From a virus, in IMG/VR virus record IMGVR_UViG_3300035698_010415, positions 1-22,305 of that record: DNA of 22,305 bases; one strand, written 5' to 3'. The position numbers and the translations under genes were made by a program. The notes under the pieces were generated by a model. The model was given only the letters and a program-made list of their open reading frames with translations. It ran no database searches and was not told where the DNA came from. This document shows, piece after piece, positions 4,501-22,305 of this stretch (positions are counted from its first letter, which is position 1; each line of letters starts with the position of its first letter).

Positions 4501-5367
4501 ATGCCAAACGAATTCGAATTTGAAATCCCCGGTGGTGGCAAAGTCTACACTGGAAACCAAGTGCCCGACACCATGCCGTTGTCGTTCGTGGCGTTTCCGA
4601 AGCCCAAGATTAGAACGCTTGCTCAGATCGCAGAACTCACGCGAGACTCGCAGACATTGAAAGTTCAAGAAGAATGGGCGAACGAAGTCGAGTGGTTCAA
4701 TCAGGGTCGTCGTAGTTCTTGTAACGCTTACATGATTGCTTGGATCGTTTGTGTTTTGATCTGGCGATTCACTGGCAACAAAGTCAGACTGTCACCGGAG
4801 TGGGTCTATTCTATTATCAACGGTGGTAAAGACGGTGGCTCAATGCTTGACGACGGAATGGTCCAAGCGTTCGAAGGTGGAATGCCAGCTTACGCTGCCG
4901 CATTCTATCAACGCTACAAGCAAGGGCAATTCGGGATGGAAGAAAAGCGTTGGGCGAAACAATCAGCGAACGATCACAAGTTTGCCGAGTGCTACAAAGC
5001 ACCGACCGACAGTTTCGAAAACATGATGCTCGCATTGTTTACTTGCATTGCAGAAGGTGGAGCCGTTGGTATGGCAGTCCATGTGGGCAACAACTACATG
5101 AAGTCGGGCAAAGTCGCTGGATTTGACAATGGTAAAGGCAACCACGCAATCGCTGGTGTCCAACTTCACTTGAAAACAAACAACCCACGATCAATCGAAG
5201 ACATTGATATTGTGTCTCCGCAATCTTGGGGAAGGAATTTCGCTAATCGTGGTTTCACGCGAATCACTACAAAACATTGCCATGAACCGGTACGTTACCA
5301 TGCTTTCTATTGCGTTCGAGCGGTCACTGCGACCCAAAACGCAGTTGAGACTTGCCGAATTAAGTAA
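4501..5367 (+). CDS. Papain-like cysteine peptidase (C1-type)
   Basis: The 288-residue product carries the papain signature in order: an oxyanion Gln and nucleophile in F-N-Q-G-R-R-S-S-C-N-A-Y (Gln68, Cys74), the His in G-N-H-A-I-A-G-V (His215), and P-Q-S-W-G (241-244), where papains normally have Asn-Ser-Trp-Gly; Gln replaces the usual Asn. F-A-N-R-G-F-T-R-I follows, as in the family. Cys-His spacing (141) is near that of papain. There is no signal peptide. The start at 4501 is chosen over an in-frame ATG at 4465 because it begins 2 bp after the previous stop and its first five codons (MPNEF) match the gene at 2997. Surrounding membrane proteins suggest a lysis, entry or host-envelope role, but the substrate is unknown. 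Confidence 0.7.
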   Translation: MPNEFEFEIPGGGKVYTGNQVPDTMPLSFVAFPKPKIRTLAQIAELTRDSQTLKVQEEWANEVEWFNQGRRSSCNAYMIAWIVCVLIWRFTGNKVRLSPEWVYSIINGGKDGGSMLDDGMVQAFEGGMPAYAAAFYQRYKQGQFGMEEKRWAKQSANDHKFAECYKAPTDSFENMMLALFTCIAEGGAVGMAVHVGNNYMKSGKVAGFDNGKGNHAIAGVQLHLKTNNPRSIEDIDIVSPQSWGRNFANRGFTRITTKHCHEPVRYHAFYCVRAVTATQNAVETCRIK

Positions 5368-5396: not shown

Positions 5397-6041
5397 ATGA
5401 AACGCTGGACTATTATTTTGATGATGTTCGTTATCGCATTGCCAATGGCAACACAAGCCCAAGAGCTTAACGAACCAGTCGCTTATGGCGACAGTATTGT
5501 TGATGAACCAACGCAAACGGTGGACGAGTCGCAGCTATTCCAGCGTGTCGATGAACTCACCGAAGTCGTTAATACGCACAGTGACCAGATCGCAACTTTG
5601 GACGCCCGGGTCAAAAAATTGGAAGGGGGCACGCTTGCGGTCTCCGCTCCGATCGGCTCGACGCTTGGAACGCTTCGCTCAACACTGAGAAAGCCCGGCA
5701 CAGTCTCGTATGGGTCCACTGGATCACGACTTGGTGGTGTCGTCACAAGTTCCAGGATTGTCAGCATCGGCGAGCCCGTGGTGACCAGCGTGAGCTATGG
5801 ACCGTTGGAACCAGTAATCGTACCAACCGCTCCGACAATCGTGACCATGCCAATGTTAGCCGCACCGGCAACTCAACAGCAAGTCTCGCGACGAACCGTT
5901 CGTGTGCCATTGCAAGAAGTTCGGACAACCAACGTGAGTTATGAAAATTGCCCCGGTGGTAATTGTCCAACTCCGCGAGCATCGTTTTTAGGTAACTCCA
6001 ATCGACCGAAGTTACTTCAACCCCGCACTTGGCGAATGTGA
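5397..6041 (+). CDS. Secreted coiled-coil protein with CPGGNC motif
   Basis: A clear signal peptide (K-R-W then hydrophobic residues 5-17, likely cleavage after A21 in A-T-Q-A-Q-E) precedes a short coiled coil (about 44-76, F-Q-R-V-D-E-L-T-E-V-V). Next are Ser/Thr/Val/Pro-rich beta-like segments and, near the C-terminus, N-C-P-G-G-N-C-P with Cys185 and Cys190. Similar Cys-Pro-Gly/Asn-Gly-x-Cys motifs are frequent in exported planctomycete proteins (from memory). GGAGA lies upstream of the start. The gene ends at TGA 6039-6041, but the same frame stays open to 6218. It may be a periplasmic partner of the neighbouring membrane proteins, such as a spanin-like factor, though this is speculative. 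Confidence 0.7.
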   Translation: MKRWTIILMMFVIALPMATQAQELNEPVAYGDSIVDEPTQTVDESQLFQRVDELTEVVNTHSDQIATLDARVKKLEGGTLAVSAPIGSTLGTLRSTLRKPGTVSYGSTGSRLGGVVTSSRIVSIGEPVVTSVSYGPLEPVIVPTAPTIVTMPMLAAPATQQQVSRRTVRVPLQEVRTTNVSYENCPGGNCPTPRASFLGNSNRPKLLQPRTWRM

Positions 6042-6049
6042 ACTGGTGG

Positions 6050-6090
6050 CACCAACAACCAACGAGTTAGTTCTCAATGGACTGTTGGTG
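6050..6090 (+). promoter_or_regulatory. Stem-loop downstream of TGA 6039
   Basis: CACCAAC (6050-6056) is perfectly complementary to GTTGGTG (6084-6090). The stem begins 8 nt after the TGA of the secreted protein gene. Spacing and form resemble downstream structures that favour stop-codon readthrough in some viruses, and a similar but larger arrangement follows the TGA at 21705. Confidence 0.35.
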
Positions 6091-6095
6091 GAGCA

Positions 6096-6218
6096 ATGCC
6101 CGGTGACGTTACTTGGCACTTGATTAACGAACACGGAATATCAGCTGGAACTGTTTATTCGATGACTGTGAGTCAACGTTACGCATTGCATGACCAAATT
6201 CACAATTCTGGTGGATAA
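6096..6218 (+). CDS. Small ORF, or readthrough extension of the secreted protein
   Basis: In the same frame as the gene ending in TGA at 6041, 58 sense codons run to TAA at 6216-6218. The only ATG in this stretch is at 6096, giving a 40-residue product that begins M-P-G-D-V-T-W-H-L-I-N-E-H-G and ends A-L-H-D-Q-I-H-N-S-G-G. GGTGGAG lies 2 nt upstream of that ATG, closer than ideal. The stop overlaps the next start as TAATG, the coupling seen elsewhere in this cluster, which argues the segment is translated. Either it is a tiny independent gene or it is the C-terminal domain of the preceding secreted protein reached by UGA readthrough. I cannot decide between these. Confidence 0.5.
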   Translation: MPGDVTWHLINEHGISAGTVYSMTVSQRYALHDQIHNSGG

Positions 6219-6475
6219 TGAAAGAATACCTAATTTTAGGTTTACTAATACTTGTCGCACTCGTGATACTTCAACGCGGGTGCGGCAATCTTGGTGAACG
6301 ATTCCGAGAACGTCAAGAAGAACGGCAGATTGACCGGGACGAGCGTAAACAAGAACGTAAAGACCGAATCGACGACCGTAAAGACAATCGGGGTCGTTTC
6401 ATGGATGGAAAGAGAAGGTTTAAAGATCGACGTGGACGCAATACCGAACCAGCACCATACGAGCACGGAAGTTGA
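6218..6475 (+). CDS. Small membrane-anchored, highly charged helical protein
   Basis: The 85-residue product has an N-terminal hydrophobic anchor (residues 4-18), a Cys at 22, and then an extremely charged helix of Arg, Glu, Asp and Lys (about 27-75). The layout of a short anchor plus a long charged helix resembles inner-membrane spanins or accessory lysis proteins, but no family is recognised. The sequence around the Cys (Q-R-G-C) is a poor lipobox. Its start overlaps the upstream TAA (TAATG). The 3' end overlaps the proposed small terminase gene by about 70 bp in another frame. It ends in TGA; the next in-frame stop is TAA 14 codons later. Confidence 0.6.
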   Translation: MKEYLILGLLILVALVILQRGCGNLGERFRERQEERQIDRDERKQERKDRIDDRKDNRGRFMDGKRRFKDRRGRNTEPAPYEHGS

Positions 6476-6986
6476 GTTGAAAAAGAAGTTCGCCTACGAG
6501 CTTCTTCGCAACCCTAACAATCCATTTGCCGCAGCTAATGAAGTTCCGGTACCAATGAAAATCCGTACCCACATGGTGTCGGATTGGACGTTTGACCCCG
6601 TCGTGCAAAAATTCAAAGACGAGCTTCTGGAAGAACACGGAGCCCGTTACTTCTTACCGAACCGTGAAGACGCGGCTCGCTTGATTTGGGACAAAGCACA
6701 ATCGTGCACGCCCGATGACTTCAACAAGCTAATGAAACTCTATGGTGACTACATGGGCTTCATCGAAAAGCCCGGTCTCACAGTCAACAACACCACCAAC
6801 GTGCAACACAACGTTATGCACGTACCGATGGCAGCAAGCGAAGACGAATGGCAAGCTCGTGCAACACTGCAACAAGAAACGCTAACTGCGAAGCTCATTG
6901 AGCAAGACAAAGCGAGTAAAGGTAAAGCCAGCTTAGAAGTCATCAAAGGTAGAGTCGCAGAACTCACCAACGGTGAAGCCCAATGA
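6405..6986 (+). CDS. terS: Terminase small subunit (probable)
   Basis: The 193-residue product lies directly before the large terminase and overlaps its start by ATGA. After a short charged N-terminus, A-Y-E-L-L-R-N-P-N-N-P-F-A-A-A and the following helices look like the helix-turn-helix DNA-binding part of small terminases. The central W-T-F-D-P-V-V and D-D-F-N-K-L-M-K-L-Y-G-D-Y-M-G segments fit the oligomerisation region. It would recognise the packaging site and regulate the large subunit. The frame is open upstream to an ATG at 6291, but ATG 6405 is preferred because it limits the overlap with the charged membrane protein to about 70 bp. The stop is a tandem TGA TAG. Confidence 0.7.
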   Translation: MEREGLKIDVDAIPNQHHTSTEVELKKKFAYELLRNPNNPFAAANEVPVPMKIRTHMVSDWTFDPVVQKFKDELLEEHGARYFLPNREDAARLIWDKAQSCTPDDFNKLMKLYGDYMGFIEKPGLTVNNTTNVQHNVMHVPMAASEDEWQARATLQQETLTAKLIEQDKASKGKASLEVIKGRVAELTNGEAQ

Positions 6987-8527
6987 TAGTTTTGCCAGAT
7001 AACAATGTCGTTTGGGCTCCGATTCCAGGATCATCGCAAGAACTGGCATTGACTTCACCTACCGACATAACCTTCTTCGACGGAGCCCGTGGACCCGGTA
7101 AGACGATTGCTCAGTGCATGAAGTACCGCAGTCGTGTGGGTATCGGGTACGGGAAGTTCTGGCGTGGCATCATCTTTGACCGTGAGCATGATAACCTTGC
7201 TGACTTGGTCGCACAAACCAAACGTGAGTTTCCGAAGTTTGAAGACGGTGCCCGCTTCAAAGAGTCTAAGGGTGACTACAAGTGGGTTTGGCCGACCGGC
7301 GAAGAACTTATGTTTCGTCACGTTAAGAAGCCCGAAGATTACAGTGGTTTCCACGGCTGGGAAATCCCATTTCTTGGTTGGAACGAGATAACGAAATATG
7401 CCACACGATTTCTTTATGACAAGTTTATGTCAATCAATCGTTCTTCTTTTCATCCTGAAAAAGACACCCCGAAAATCAAAGAAGGGAATCGGTTTGTGTA
7501 CGCAACGCATGATCGCGAACCGCTGCCACCAATACCACTCGAAGTATTTATTACCACGAACCCGAACGGTCCCGGTCACAACTGGTGCAAAGAAGAATTC
7601 GTTGATCCGGCACCACCGGGTCAGATCGTTCGTAAACGAGTAGAGTTGTACGACGATCTGAAAGACGAAACGCGAGTTGTCGAAAAGACACAAGTGCGAG
7701 TCTTCGGAAACTTTTACGAGAACCCATACATTCCCGATGCGTATCGAGCGAGCATCATCGAAGCGTGCGAACGTGATCCGAACTTGAAAGCCGCATGGGT
7801 CTTTGGTGACTGGGCTGTTAACGCTGGTGGTGCAATTGACGATCTTTGGCGTGATCCAATTCATGTGATTGAGCGATTCGCGATTCCGAAAGATTGGATT
7901 GTGGACCGTGCGTTCGATTGGGGCTCCACGTCACCGTTCTGCACAACGTGGTGGGCAGAAGCCAATGGCGAAGAAGTGGAATTGCTCAACGGTCGAATAT
8001 GGGCTCCACCACGCGGCACATTGTTTTGCATTTCCGAAGACTACGGAACGCACAAGATTGGTTCCAATGTAGGCTTGAAGTTATCAGCTAAAGACGTGGC
8101 ACTCCGAGTTAAGAAGATTGACGATCAATTGCGAAGTGAGTTGTGGATTAGCTCGCAAGTGCGACCGGGACCGGCAGACAATTCAATTCGCAATGTAATT
8201 CAATCTGACGTTGACACCATCGAAACCCAAATGGCTGATCAGAAAGTTCTTTGGAGCGAGTCTGACAAGTCACCGGGTTCCAGAATAAACGGCTTGCAAC
8301 TTTTTCGCGACCGACTGCAAGCGTCGGCTCGACAAGAAGGTCCAGGAATTTACTTCTTCCGCAATTGCGTAGGGTGCAATAAAACATTACCATCCCTGCC
8401 CCGCGACGAAGACAAACCCGACGACGTTTGCACAGAATCAGAAGATCACTTGTACGATACGGTTCGCTACCGTGTTCTCAAGTCAGCTAACCGATACGCG
8501 ACAAACCTTAACGTGCAATGGAACTAA
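6983..8527 (+). CDS. terL: Terminase large subunit
   Basis: This 514-residue packaging motor has an N-terminal ATPase and a C-terminal nuclease. Walker A is G-A-R-G-P-G-K-T at 34-41. The Walker B region is I-P-F-L-G-W-N-E-I near residue 130, where Asn takes the usual Asp place before the catalytic Glu. The RNase H-like nuclease starts with F-D-W-G-S-T-S-P-F (Asp312) and ends with E-D-H-L-Y-D-T-V-R-Y (Asp488, Asp492), the expected metal-binding acids. It cuts concatemeric DNA and pumps it into the prohead through the portal. The start overlaps the small subunit stop, and the portal gene follows after 1 bp. Length is normal for the family. Confidence 0.93.
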   Translation: MIVLPDNNVVWAPIPGSSQELALTSPTDITFFDGARGPGKTIAQCMKYRSRVGIGYGKFWRGIIFDREHDNLADLVAQTKREFPKFEDGARFKESKGDYKWVWPTGEELMFRHVKKPEDYSGFHGWEIPFLGWNEITKYATRFLYDKFMSINRSSFHPEKDTPKIKEGNRFVYATHDREPLPPIPLEVFITTNPNGPGHNWCKEEFVDPAPPGQIVRKRVELYDDLKDETRVVEKTQVRVFGNFYENPYIPDAYRASIIEACERDPNLKAAWVFGDWAVNAGGAIDDLWRDPIHVIERFAIPKDWIVDRAFDWGSTSPFCTTWWAEANGEEVELLNGRIWAPPRGTLFCISEDYGTHKIGSNVGLKLSAKDVALRVKKIDDQLRSELWISSQVRPGPADNSIRNVIQSDVDTIETQMADQKVLWSESDKSPGSRINGLQLFRDRLQASARQEGPGIYFFRNCVGCNKTLPSLPRDEDKPDDVCTESEDHLYDTVRYRVLKSANRYATNLNVQWN

Positions 8528-18650: not shown

Positions 18651-21600
18651 ATGGCAGACGAACGAATTGATATTGAGATACGGGACCGTATCAATAGTCG
18701 AATCCGTAAGAAGATCAAGGCTATCGGGACCGCAGCACGAGCTTCTAGTGTTGATATCGGAATTCTCAAGAAAGCACTCAACTTCAACAATCTTAATCTC
18801 GGTCTTCGCAACACAGGGATCGGTAAGATTGGTGCGGAAATGCAGAAAGCTGCATTGAACGCTGACAAGCTCGCACTTTCACAAAATAAAGTTGCGACAG
18901 CGTTGGTGAAGCTTGGACTTGAAGAACAAAAGCTCGCAACAGTCCGATCACAAGCCGCAGCGAAAAGTGCGATTGCTCAACAGAAGTATCGCCAAGAGAT
19001 TGCCAAGACCATGACGGCACAGAGTGCCCGCGTTCACTCTGCAATGCTCGGCGAACAGAAAATTCAACAAGCTCAAAACAAAACCGCAATAACAGCTAGA
19101 CAAGTTAGTGCTGCGAATGAGCGGTTAACGCAAGTTCAACATAGAACTGCGGTATCGGCAAGTCGCTTAGCAGTTGAGCAAAACAAAGTTGCGATCTCGA
19201 ACAATCAAGTTGCGATCAGTGATAACAAGTTGTTGATCTCGCACGATAATGTGAAGATTAGTGCCAACAATCTCGCATTGAGCAATGACAAGTTATTGAT
19301 CTCAAACGACAAAGTGAAGTCGTCGGTAAACCAGTTGGCAATCGCTGACGAAAAACTATTTATCGCAGAAAACAAAGCCAAGACCAGTGCTGTTCAATTA
19401 GCTGCCGCAGAAGCTCGTCTAGCTGCACAACAAGCTCGTTTGGCGGCAGCGACAGCGAATACCAGTAGAAGTCAATCAGCGGGCACAGCGTCGTCCAGTC
19501 GCTTGAGTTCTGCGTTGTCAGTTCTCAGCACTCGACTGATTGCGGTGGGTCGCGGAGCGGCAACTGCGGCTCGTGGTCTAATGAGCTTCTTCCGAACAAT
19601 TCGAGCGGTGCGAACTGCAACAGTTGGTGCGGCACAGACAATTCGTTCGTTCTTGTCTGCATTCTTATTGATTGGTGCCACTGGTGGTATCTTCCGGCAA
19701 CTAGATGCGTATCGACAATTGCAAAACCAATTGCGAATCACCACGGACTCGCAAGATGGTTTGAATAAGATCACCAAGGAAATGTTCCAGATTGCCGACA
19801 AAGCTCGTGTGCCGGTAACGTCACTTGCGAAAACGTTCCGGCGATTCGACTTTGCGATCCAGAACTTGGGTGGTAGTCAACGCGAGTCATTACGACTGAC
19901 TGAAACCGTTGGTAAGTTGCTCACGCTATCCGGCTCGACTGCGGAAGAAGCCGCGAGTTCGTTGCTCCAGCTTTCGCAAGCGTTCAACAAAGGTAAGCTT
20001 GACGGTGACGAGTTTCGATCAGTTGCGGAATTGATGCCGCAAGCGATTCACGAGATCACTAAAGTGCTTAAAATTTCACGCGGTGAGATTTTCAAGTATT
20101 CTGAAGAAGGTAAGATTACGGTTGACGTGTTGCGAGAAGCATTTGGCAATCTTGCTAAGCAAGTTGACCGCGACATGAAAAAGTTGCCACGAACAATTGA
20201 ACAAGCTTGGACTCAGCTAAAAAACGCAGTCACTCAGTTCTTCGGCGAGTTGAATGAGAAGTTCGGCTTCACTGACGGAATCATTCGCTTCATTGATTCG
20301 ATTCGAAACAACTTACCCGCTGTTGTTCGCTGGGTGCGTGCATTCGGTGCAGCGTTGGCAGTGGTTGCAGCGTCGGGAGCGTTAGCTTTACTGTACCCAC
20401 TGACTTTGTTCTTCGTTTCGTTACCGGGTCAGATTACACTCGCCACGGGATACCTTACTTTCTTCGCTGATCAAATCAAAGTTGGTACGACTGGAATCAT
20501 AACGTTCCGTGACGTAGCTTGGTCTTTCTTTACGAAGCTGCCGGGCTTGATTGCGGAGTTGTTCAAGGTGACTGGCGTTTCCGGTTTCTTCGAGAACGTC
20601 TTTGGCGATCCACAAAAAGTGTTCCAATTGTACACTGCGTTGATCATGGGTTTGAAAGACGCTATCGTTAACTTGATCTCGTTCGGGCAAGCCCTTTTTT
20701 CAACTTGGAAGTCATTGTCTTGGGGTGACATTGGTATGTTGTTCCTTGAAGGTTTCGTTAACGCGGCTCGTACAATATCAGTTATGTTTCTCCAAGTCAT
20801 CAAAGCTTTGATTCCACCGATCATCAAAGCGTGGGACTACGGAGTGCAACTAATGATTCACTCCATTGCCAACTTGTTTGAAGCGTTTCCCCAAGGTGCG
20901 AAGTGGGCTTTCGGAATTGACGATAACGCGATTGCAAACATTCGCGAAGCTGCCACTGCGTTTAAGACGGACTTCAAACCAGCGGTCGATGGTGTTCAGC
21001 TTGCAATGGAAGCAATCAACACTACCGCAGATGATATGACTCCCGTAACACGACGTGCTGCGGCACACTTCGGTGCGGAATGGACAAACGCATACCAGCG
21101 AGCCCAAGGTGCATTCAAGGGTTTCCAAAAAGAAGTGATGAAAGACGCTATGGCTAACGCTCGCTTCCGAATCGAAGTCAACGGAACTGCGTGGCAAAAA
21201 ATCCAACTGACTGCGTTTGATTCGATGCGAAAGATAAACGAGAACTGGCGTGCAGTGAGTCAAGAAATGGTTGCGAACCAAACTGCCGCCGCCAATGGCA
21301 TGACGCAAAACTGGTCAACGACATTCGAGACATTTTATAGCATCGCAAAGATTGTGGGCAACGCAATCTTAGGTATCTTGCAACAACTCGGTGCCGAGAT
21401 TGCATCGACTGCGAACAACCTACTGAGTATTGCGAACAAAGCAACTGGCGGTTTGATCCCGAAACAAATTAGCGGTGGTGCTGTTGGTCAAGGGGTTGGC
21501 TTCGCGTTGGGTGGTCCGACCGGTGGGACACTTGGTCAAGGGCTTGGTTTGTTCGCGTCGGGTGGTGGTGACGCTAACTTACGTGGAGCATCAGAAGACA

Positions 21601-21707
21601 TTAAGAAAACTGAGAATGCGGTGTTGAGTTTGGGCAACGCAATTGGAACGGTCAAGCAAGGTGTGAATGATTTCTTCGAAGGTTTCAAAGCGTTGGAAGG
21701 ATCGTGA
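18651..21707 (+). CDS. Tape measure protein, part up to the first in-frame TGA
   Basis: These 1018 residues carry a helical N-terminus with 13 contiguous seven-residue repeats (178-268, of the form N-K-V-A-I-S-N). A conserved tape-measure core follows (about 345-470: Y-R-Q-L-Q-N-Q-L-R-I-T, L-T-L-S-G-S-T-A-E-E-A, Q-A-F-N-K-G-K-L-D-G-D-E-F-R-S, M-P-Q-A-I), then hydrophobic segments (about 565-590 and later) and a Gly-rich region. It sets tail length and fills the tube lumen. The frame meets TGA at 21705, but the same frame continues into a typical tape-measure C-terminus beyond, so this is unlikely to be the natural end. The start is 3 bp after the previous stop. Confidence 0.9.
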   Translation: MADERIDIEIRDRINSRIRKKIKAIGTAARASSVDIGILKKALNFNNLNLGLRNTGIGKIGAEMQKAALNADKLALSQNKVATALVKLGLEEQKLATVRSQAAAKSAIAQQKYRQEIAKTMTAQSARVHSAMLGEQKIQQAQNKTAITARQVSAANERLTQVQHRTAVSASRLAVEQNKVAISNNQVAISDNKLLISHDNVKISANNLALSNDKLLISNDKVKSSVNQLAIADEKLFIAENKAKTSAVQLAAAEARLAAQQARLAAATANTSRSQSAGTASSSRLSSALSVLSTRLIAVGRGAATAARGLMSFFRTIRAVRTATVGAAQTIRSFLSAFLLIGATGGIFRQLDAYRQLQNQLRITTDSQDGLNKITKEMFQIADKARVPVTSLAKTFRRFDFAIQNLGGSQRESLRLTETVGKLLTLSGSTAEEAASSLLQLSQAFNKGKLDGDEFRSVAELMPQAIHEITKVLKISRGEIFKYSEEGKITVDVLREAFGNLAKQVDRDMKKLPRTIEQAWTQLKNAVTQFFGELNEKFGFTDGIIRFIDSIRNNLPAVVRWVRAFGAALAVVAASGALALLYPLTLFFVSLPGQITLATGYLTFFADQIKVGTTGIITFRDVAWSFFTKLPGLIAELFKVTGVSGFFENVFGDPQKVFQLYTALIMGLKDAIVNLISFGQALFSTWKSLSWGDIGMLFLEGFVNAARTISVMFLQVIKALIPPIIKAWDYGVQLMIHSIANLFEAFPQGAKWAFGIDDNAIANIREAATAFKTDFKPAVDGVQLAMEAINTTADDMTPVTRRAAAHFGAEWTNAYQRAQGAFKGFQKEVMKDAMANARFRIEVNGTAWQKIQLTAFDSMRKINENWRAVSQEMVANQTAAANGMTQNWSTTFETFYSIAKIVGNAILGILQQLGAEIASTANNLLSIANKATGGLIPKQISGGAVGQGVGFALGGPTGGTLGQGLGLFASGGGDANLRGASEDIKKTENAVLSLGNAIGTVKQGVNDFFEGFKALEGS

Positions 21708-22305
21708 ACTAACGGCGAATGTCTCCCCGGCGGGGTGGATGGACCAAACATGATGCACCGAATGGGTGTCTCAACTTTTCAAGCCGCTAGTGGCATGAAA
21801 AGTTACTGGAGACAAGCAAACAAAGCGTGGCAAGAGCAAAACAAACTCCAGGAAACAGTACCGTTCGGTTCGGGCTCAACATGACAGGGTGGTGGCTGTT
21901 TTGACAGCGCCGCTGGTGCAGCGGGTAAATACGGACAAGCATTGCAAGGTGCTTCTGCCCAACAGGGTAGATTCAACAATTTAGCTCAGCAAGGTATTGG
22001 TGGACTTGGAAGTTCGCTCAGTGGATTTGCTAATCAATCACAGTCAGTAATCGGCTCAGTGTTCGGCAACTTGCAAAGTGCGTTGAGCAACTTTGTGCGA
22101 ACTGGAAAGCTCGACTTCAAAGAGTTGATGCGATCTATCCTTGACGATCTACTGAGAATGCTGACGAATAAACTGTTCCAACAATTCATGCAAGGATTTG
22201 GTGGGGGTGGCTTCGGTGGTGGTGGTGGTGGGGGTGGATTGTTTGGTGGTGGTGGTGGTGGACTATTCGGTGGGGGTGGTGGATTGTTTGGGGGTGGTGG
22301 ATTTC
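21708..22305 (+). CDS. Tape measure protein, in-frame continuation past TGA codons, partial
   Basis: The tape measure frame continues for 58 sense codons (T-N-G-E-C-L-P-G-G-V ... F-G-S-G-S-T), meets a second TGA at 21882-21884, then stays open for 140 codons to the window edge. The last part is clear: Q-S-A-L-S-N-F-V-R-T-G-K-L-D-F-K-E-L-M-R-S-I-L-D-D-L matches the C-terminal pattern of lambda gpH-type tape measures. It is followed by a tail of Gly runs and L-F pairs. No good start codon precedes the second part, so independent translation is unlikely. Either UGA is read through or decoded here, or the gene carries two nonsense mutations. Confidence 0.7.
21720..21814 (+). ncRNA. Structured RNA element inside the tape measure gene
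   Basis: TGTCTCC (21720-21726) pairs perfectly with GGAGACA (21808-21814) and encloses a second strong hairpin, AACTTTTC (21773-21780) with GAAAAGTT (21797-21804), whose interior adds GCCG/TGGC around a CTAG loop. A small CCCC-GGC-GGGG hairpin and alternative GGTG/CACC pairs lie near the 5' end. The element starts 12 nt after the first TGA. It is best seen as a cis-acting mRNA structure; I could not match it to a known ribozyme or intron class. Confidence 0.45.

Follow-up and report, generated by a model that had tools for sequence, protein, structure and literature searches.

A described parallel to the protein considered here is TsoB, a rhodanese/DsbD fusion-like protein (NF045694; PMC13188914) that contains two selenocysteine (Sec, U) residues spaced by four and encoded by in-frame UGA codons, and it is the only protein with a UxxxxU arrangement in a 2026 inventory of 119 prokaryotic selenoprotein families (PMC13188914). 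The phage tape measure proteins (TMPs) described below share the in-frame UGA codons and the spacing, but TsoB is a rhodanese-like cellular protein, whereas here the pair lies in a Gly-rich segment of a phage tail protein, and no relation of fold is claimed. Neither a tape measure nor any other phage protein is included in the inventory, whose text does not contain the word "phage" (PMC13188914), and none of the NCBIfam selenoprotein models matches these tape measures. Sec insertion of the E. coli FdhF type uses a hairpin located inside the coding region, 16-37 nt past the UGA, as is predicted here, although the hairpins of the present phages are weaker and vary from one phage to another, and binding of SelB to them is predicted. 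Lambda-type TMPs such as lambda gpH share with our locus the TMP_3 and Tape_meas_lam_C domains, the gene order, and the Gly-rich C-terminus, but the lambda-type relatives examined have no UGA at the corresponding place and almost no Cys, and the UxxxxU/C segment is a property of the present group. Other phages, among them crAss-like and Lak phages (code 15) and those using code 4 or 25, likewise read a stop as sense in late genes, but they contain many in-frame stops across genes, in contrast to the recoding of UGA at a fixed motif of one gene, with UGA as a stop elsewhere, that is indicated here. Finally, Basilisk-like phages provide another link between phages and selenocysteine in carrying a tRNA-Sec gene (PMC6145125), though no selenoprotein has been described in them and the present contigs have no tRNA gene. 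No report of a phage selenoprotein, tape measure or other, was found in the open-licence literature searched, a scope in which a report in a subscription journal could be missed.

The DNA analyzed here (the window) is a complete IMG/VR record of 22,305 bases, a metagenomic contig, and its features are collected in Table 1. The initial annotation had observed that the TGA codons at 21705 and 21882 are in frame with the ATG at 18651, and this was confirmed, with a middle segment of 58 codons and a last segment of 140 codons that is open to the contig end; read through both TGAs, the gene comprises 1218 codons up to that point. The TMP C-terminal domain, a Tape_meas_lam_C match, is located beyond both TGAs, and this region is 64% and 68% identical to those of two other IMG/VR phages, L092 and L093, respectively. 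The presence of both TMP_3 and Tape_meas_lam_C in a long gene that follows the tail tube and chaperone genes identifies the product as a lambda-type TMP. We consider it likely that the gene encodes one continuous TMP in which UGA is read as Sec within UxxxxU or UxxxxC pairs, through the SelB and tRNA-Sec of the host together with RNA structure 3' of the UGA codons.

Table 1. Features of the tape measure gene in the window
Feature	Position	Strand	Evidence
Tape measure protein (TMP) gene, incomplete at contig end	18651..22305	+	Translation through two UGAs; TMP_3 + Tape_meas_lam_C; PHROG tape measure families
TMP_3 domain, residues 346-536, 5' of both UGAs	19686..20258	+	Pfam PF20155, E 1.4e-53
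First UGA, residue 1019, predicted selenocysteine	21705..21707	+	Coding signal on each side
Cys codon TGT, residue 1024, +5 from first UGA (UTNGEC)	21720..21722	+	One of 2 Cys codons in TMP
SECIS-like hairpin for first UGA, loop GGC at 21 nt past UGA	21720..21741	+	-8.4 kcal/mol; 2.5% of background TGAs as good; 1/400 shuffles
Second UGA, residue 1078, predicted selenocysteine	21882..21884	+	Coding score for the 19 codons ahead of any later start
Cys codon TGT, residue 1083, +5 from second UGA (UQGGGC)	21897..21899	+	Compare GSGSTU in L092
Possible SECIS-like hairpin for second UGA, loop GUG at 31 nt past UGA	21907..21926	+	-9.4 kcal/mol; 1.1% of background, but 79/400 shuffles as good
Tape_meas_lam_C domain, residues 1122-1178, in frame 3' of both UGAs	22014..22184	+	Pfam PF09718, E 2.4e-10

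The relatives are IMG/VR phages, of which L092 and L093 were obtained by searching with the lam_C region, L175 by a wider search, and L270, L268, and L269 by a search with the C-terminus. Paired in-frame UGAs with x4 spacing occur near the Gly-rich C-terminus of four of these TMPs, all of which lack Cys (STUSPFGUGNASGG in L092, GGLUGAGGUGSGFASGG in L093, GGLUGAGGUGAGF in L175, and GFGUGPGGUGGKASGG in L270), and the residues between and around the UGAs vary from phage to phage. Over the five phages the motif positions are occupied by 10 UGA, two TGT, and no TGG codons. Exchange of predicted Sec and Cys is seen at the second position only, where the window has Cys and the relatives have U, so that the Cys form comes from one phage, and no Cys homolog at the first position was seen among the relatives compared. 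The placement of the motif also differs: it precedes lam_C in the window but follows that domain in the relatives. L268 and L269 are close relatives, 87% identical downstream, in which the motif is absent and the frame reads straight through as one continuous protein with no TGA at that place; the downstream part is thus tape measure, and these two phages indicate that the family can do without the motif. Among 80 TMP_3 relatives none has the motif and there is almost no Cys, so it is not general among TMPs, and a scan of 163 TMP-like frames, which includes duplicates and predates L270, found no further U-x4-U/C at the corresponding place and a few other matches in unrelated upstream parts of frames. 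No match was obtained in viral contigs when the whole TMP, a head-tail gene, the extended part of gene 5397, or gene 4501 was used as a single-protein query. The window is syntenic with G003, the contig of L175 (major capsid 53.5% and tail tube 47% identical).

Translation beyond the two UGAs is also indicated by a codon-usage score trained on the window's own genes, with out-of-frame windows as control. The middle and last segments score +7.3 and +12.1, both within the range of in-frame genes, compared with a mean of -18.4 and a maximum of 1.7 for out-of-frame windows of 58 codons, so that with the lam_C match each UGA is flanked by coding sequence. The 19 codons from the second TGA to the first possible start (TTG 21942) score +8.5, a value reached by no out-of-frame window, which argues against re-initiation, and the 14 codons from the first TGA to ATG 21750 score +2.5, reached by 2.5% of out-of-frame windows; a restart inside the TMP gene at 21750 or 21942 is a poor explanation. 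These internal starts, and the metagenomic origin of the contig, are what would speak for an error in sequencing or assembly, for decay of the gene, or for a TMP split into separately started pieces, but paired UGAs with the same spacing are kept in independent contigs from four other samples, which opposes error and decay, and a split is opposed by the coding signal ahead of the internal starts and by the unrecoded relatives in which the TMP is one continuous protein. We regard this group of explanations as extremely improbable.

A feature absent from the initial annotation is the pairing of the TGAs with Cys. Cys is encoded just twice in the 1218 codons of the TMP, in both cases exactly five codons past a TGA (U-TNGE-C and U-QGGG-C); if the Cys codons were placed at random, the probability that both fall at +5 would be about 1e-6, and that they share any offset within 10 codons about 3e-5. 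The downstream parts of the 80 TMP_3 relatives contain two Cys codons altogether, and in the corresponding segments of 48 other TMPs Trp accounts for 0.3% of residues and Cys for 0%. The Cys partners in the window would also suit decoding of UGA as Cys, giving CxxxxC motifs, if the host (selC*-type) or the phage supplied a suppressor tRNA-Cys(UCA), and a selC*-type tRNA-Cys(UCA) has been reported in Desulfobacterales (PMC7609411). Suppression of this kind, however, would leave unexplained why 10 of the 12 motif positions are UGA when TGC and TGT are one change away, and it does not account for the conserved RNA 3' of the motif unless a SelB*-like factor is involved; UGA also stops the gene 5' of the TMP in relatives. 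These points make a Cys suppressor quite improbable.

The use of UGA as a stop is seen directly upstream of the tape measure in relatives. In L174 (the whole contig of L093), G003, and L270, a 149-codon gene directly 5' of the TMP ends in TGA within AARTGAGAAAATAAATG, 8 nt ahead of the TMP ATG, and reading past this TGA gives 10-48 codons that are unrelated between the phages. UGA thus remains a stop in another gene in three of the four relatives, a point not provable from the window alone, and since it is stop and sense in neighboring genes, site-specific recoding rather than a changed code is indicated. In the window itself, all five TGA-ended frames run on to TAA or TAG, two of them to a stop that overlaps the following start codon, and the gene 5397 extension has a coding score, as would be expected if UGA were reassigned throughout the genome of this phage or its host (to Trp, code 4; to Gly, code 25). 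Reassigned genomes use UGA freely and never as a stop, whereas in-frame TGA is rare in the window (6 compared with 93 TGG), and neither this rarity, nor the UGA stop directly 5' of the TMP in relatives, nor the Cys at +5 would be explained, so that genome-wide reassignment is very unlikely.

The stretch of about 60-75 nt past the UGA pair shows nearly no synonymous change in the UGA-bearing relatives, unlike the rest of the TMP. Across the first 25 codons 3' of the motif these four relatives have 0 to 2 synonymous changes, whereas the figure elsewhere in the C-terminus is about 23-41%, or 11% for the closest pair, and against the UGA-free L268 and L269, 4-6 of 18 are changed in the same stretch; a Fisher test for L092-L270 gives 3e-5. 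In the pairs L092-L174, L092-L175, L092-L270, and L175-L270, sliding windows with zero synonymous change are confined, along the TMP, to the surroundings of the UGA pair or the sequence directly behind it; in the close pair L174-L175 such windows occur elsewhere, and L174-L270 has none. The conserved block holds a hairpin, GGUACAC-AGGUG-GUGUAUC, whose loop begins 23-29 nt after the second UGA and whose sequence is altered in L268 and L269; no covariation supporting it was seen among the relatives. This suppression of synonymous change could also have arisen if phages exchanged the module recently, though the motif codons differ. A conserved 3' stretch would likewise suit programmed readthrough, in which the RNA would stimulate leaky decoding of UGA, probably by tRNA-Trp, to make short and long TMP in a set ratio with the inserted residue unimportant, and L271 has Trp (TGG) in a comparable Gly-rich stretch. 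Two consecutive UGAs would, however, multiply the loss, and neither the exact x4 spacing in five phages nor the Cys partners would be accounted for by a mechanism indifferent to the residue; with no UGG at the motif and Trp so rare in the stretches of other TMPs, leaky readthrough appears unlikely.

For hairpins close to each UGA, we applied published bSECIS limits (loop of 3-9 nt with an early G, 16-37 nt from the UGA, stem of 4-16 bp, and MFE <= -7.5; PMC13188914) with two controls, namely 1286 background TGAs and 400 synonymous-codon shuffles that keep the peptide. These replaced an earlier free-energy ranking of the TGAs that was indecisive, and the change weakened the hairpin argument. 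Both UGAs of the window satisfy the limits, as do the first UGAs of L174 (-8.0) and L175 (-12.0; 0.2% of background), while the other UGA sites of the relatives, at about -6.4 to -6.7, are weaker than the -7.5 limit. Against synonymous shuffles only the first UGA of the window and that of L175 (18/400) are notable. The Rfam search gave no SECIS match with models that may not cover every SECIS. The hairpins provide moderate evidence for a predicted SECIS-like element, and the synonymous conservation is the stronger argument for RNA function.

Among the explanations listed in the initial annotation (readthrough, UGA reassignment, Sec-like recoding, and decay), between which it did not choose, the relatives oppose most, and Sec-like recoding is the best supported, because it accounts for the pairs, for exchange with Cys, for UGA being kept where TGG or TGT is one step away, for the constraint on the 3' RNA, and for the use of UGA as a stop elsewhere. 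As proposed here, host SelB and tRNA-Sec would decode both UGAs as selenocysteine, directed by RNA structure just 3' of these codons; the contigs examined (window and relatives) contain no tRNA-Sec or sel gene, and no close prophage was found in genome contigs. Each Sec would have as its partner, five residues further along, either another Sec or a Cys, and the pairs would sit in flexible, Gly-rich sequence close to the C-terminus of the TMP. In lambda-type TMPs the C-terminal portion lies toward the tail tip, and at this end of the protein the pair would most likely form a diselenide or selenylsulfide, or a metal site, either within one molecule or between subunits; a role as a redox lock that opens at assembly or injection is a guess. 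Possible rather than probable is the wider suggestion of a siphophage lineage with a virion structural selenoprotein, in which tail maturation or genome injection is controlled by Sec pairs acting as a redox lock or trigger, so that infection is tied to selenium-using hosts. If the reading of UGA as Sec is correct, the TMP would be, judged by the literature searched, the first structural selenoprotein of a phage, and the finding would imply that the phage depends on the Sec machinery of its host, that Sec is used outside enzymes, and that gene callers truncate such TMPs in viral databases.

The remark in the initial annotation on the intactness of the other genes broadly holds, with the exception of gene 5397 (5397-6218, + strand), in which the frame stays open and coding beyond a TGA at 6039 as far as a TAA that overlaps the next ATG. 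This TGA may be a third recoded UGA, or the extension may be a separate 40-codon ORF from ATG 6096; no relatives of the extension were found, and an alignment with hand-made variant rows, added to widen the patterns, found nothing in genome contigs. Gene 5397 contains CPGGNC (5949-5966, + strand), a Cys-x4-Cys with Gly in the middle and the same spacing as the TMP motif; a planctomycete host was considered from the style of this motif but is not claimed. In the case of gene 1439 (1439-2575, + strand), the frame runs 23 codons past the TGA at 2501 to a TAA overlapping the next start, with an ambiguous coding signal, and the TGAs of genes 5397 and 1439 both fail the bSECIS limits. For gene 1439, and likewise for the frames that end at 6475 and 6986, the evidence of recoding is weak. 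Two related contigs, L241 and L253, have in common the sequence GKKUCKPCKUWNKKHYANGV at the start of their TMP-containing frames, with two in-frame TGAs beside Cys, though it lies upstream of the tape measure and may be non-coding. Gene 4501 (4501-5367, + strand) is Cys-rich, encoding seven Cys, and has only weak matches, to a PHROG peptidase (E 0.015) and to one huge uncultured phage. Finally, the terminase small subunit gene ends in a TGA followed directly by TAG, which overlaps the next ATG (6984-6989, + strand).
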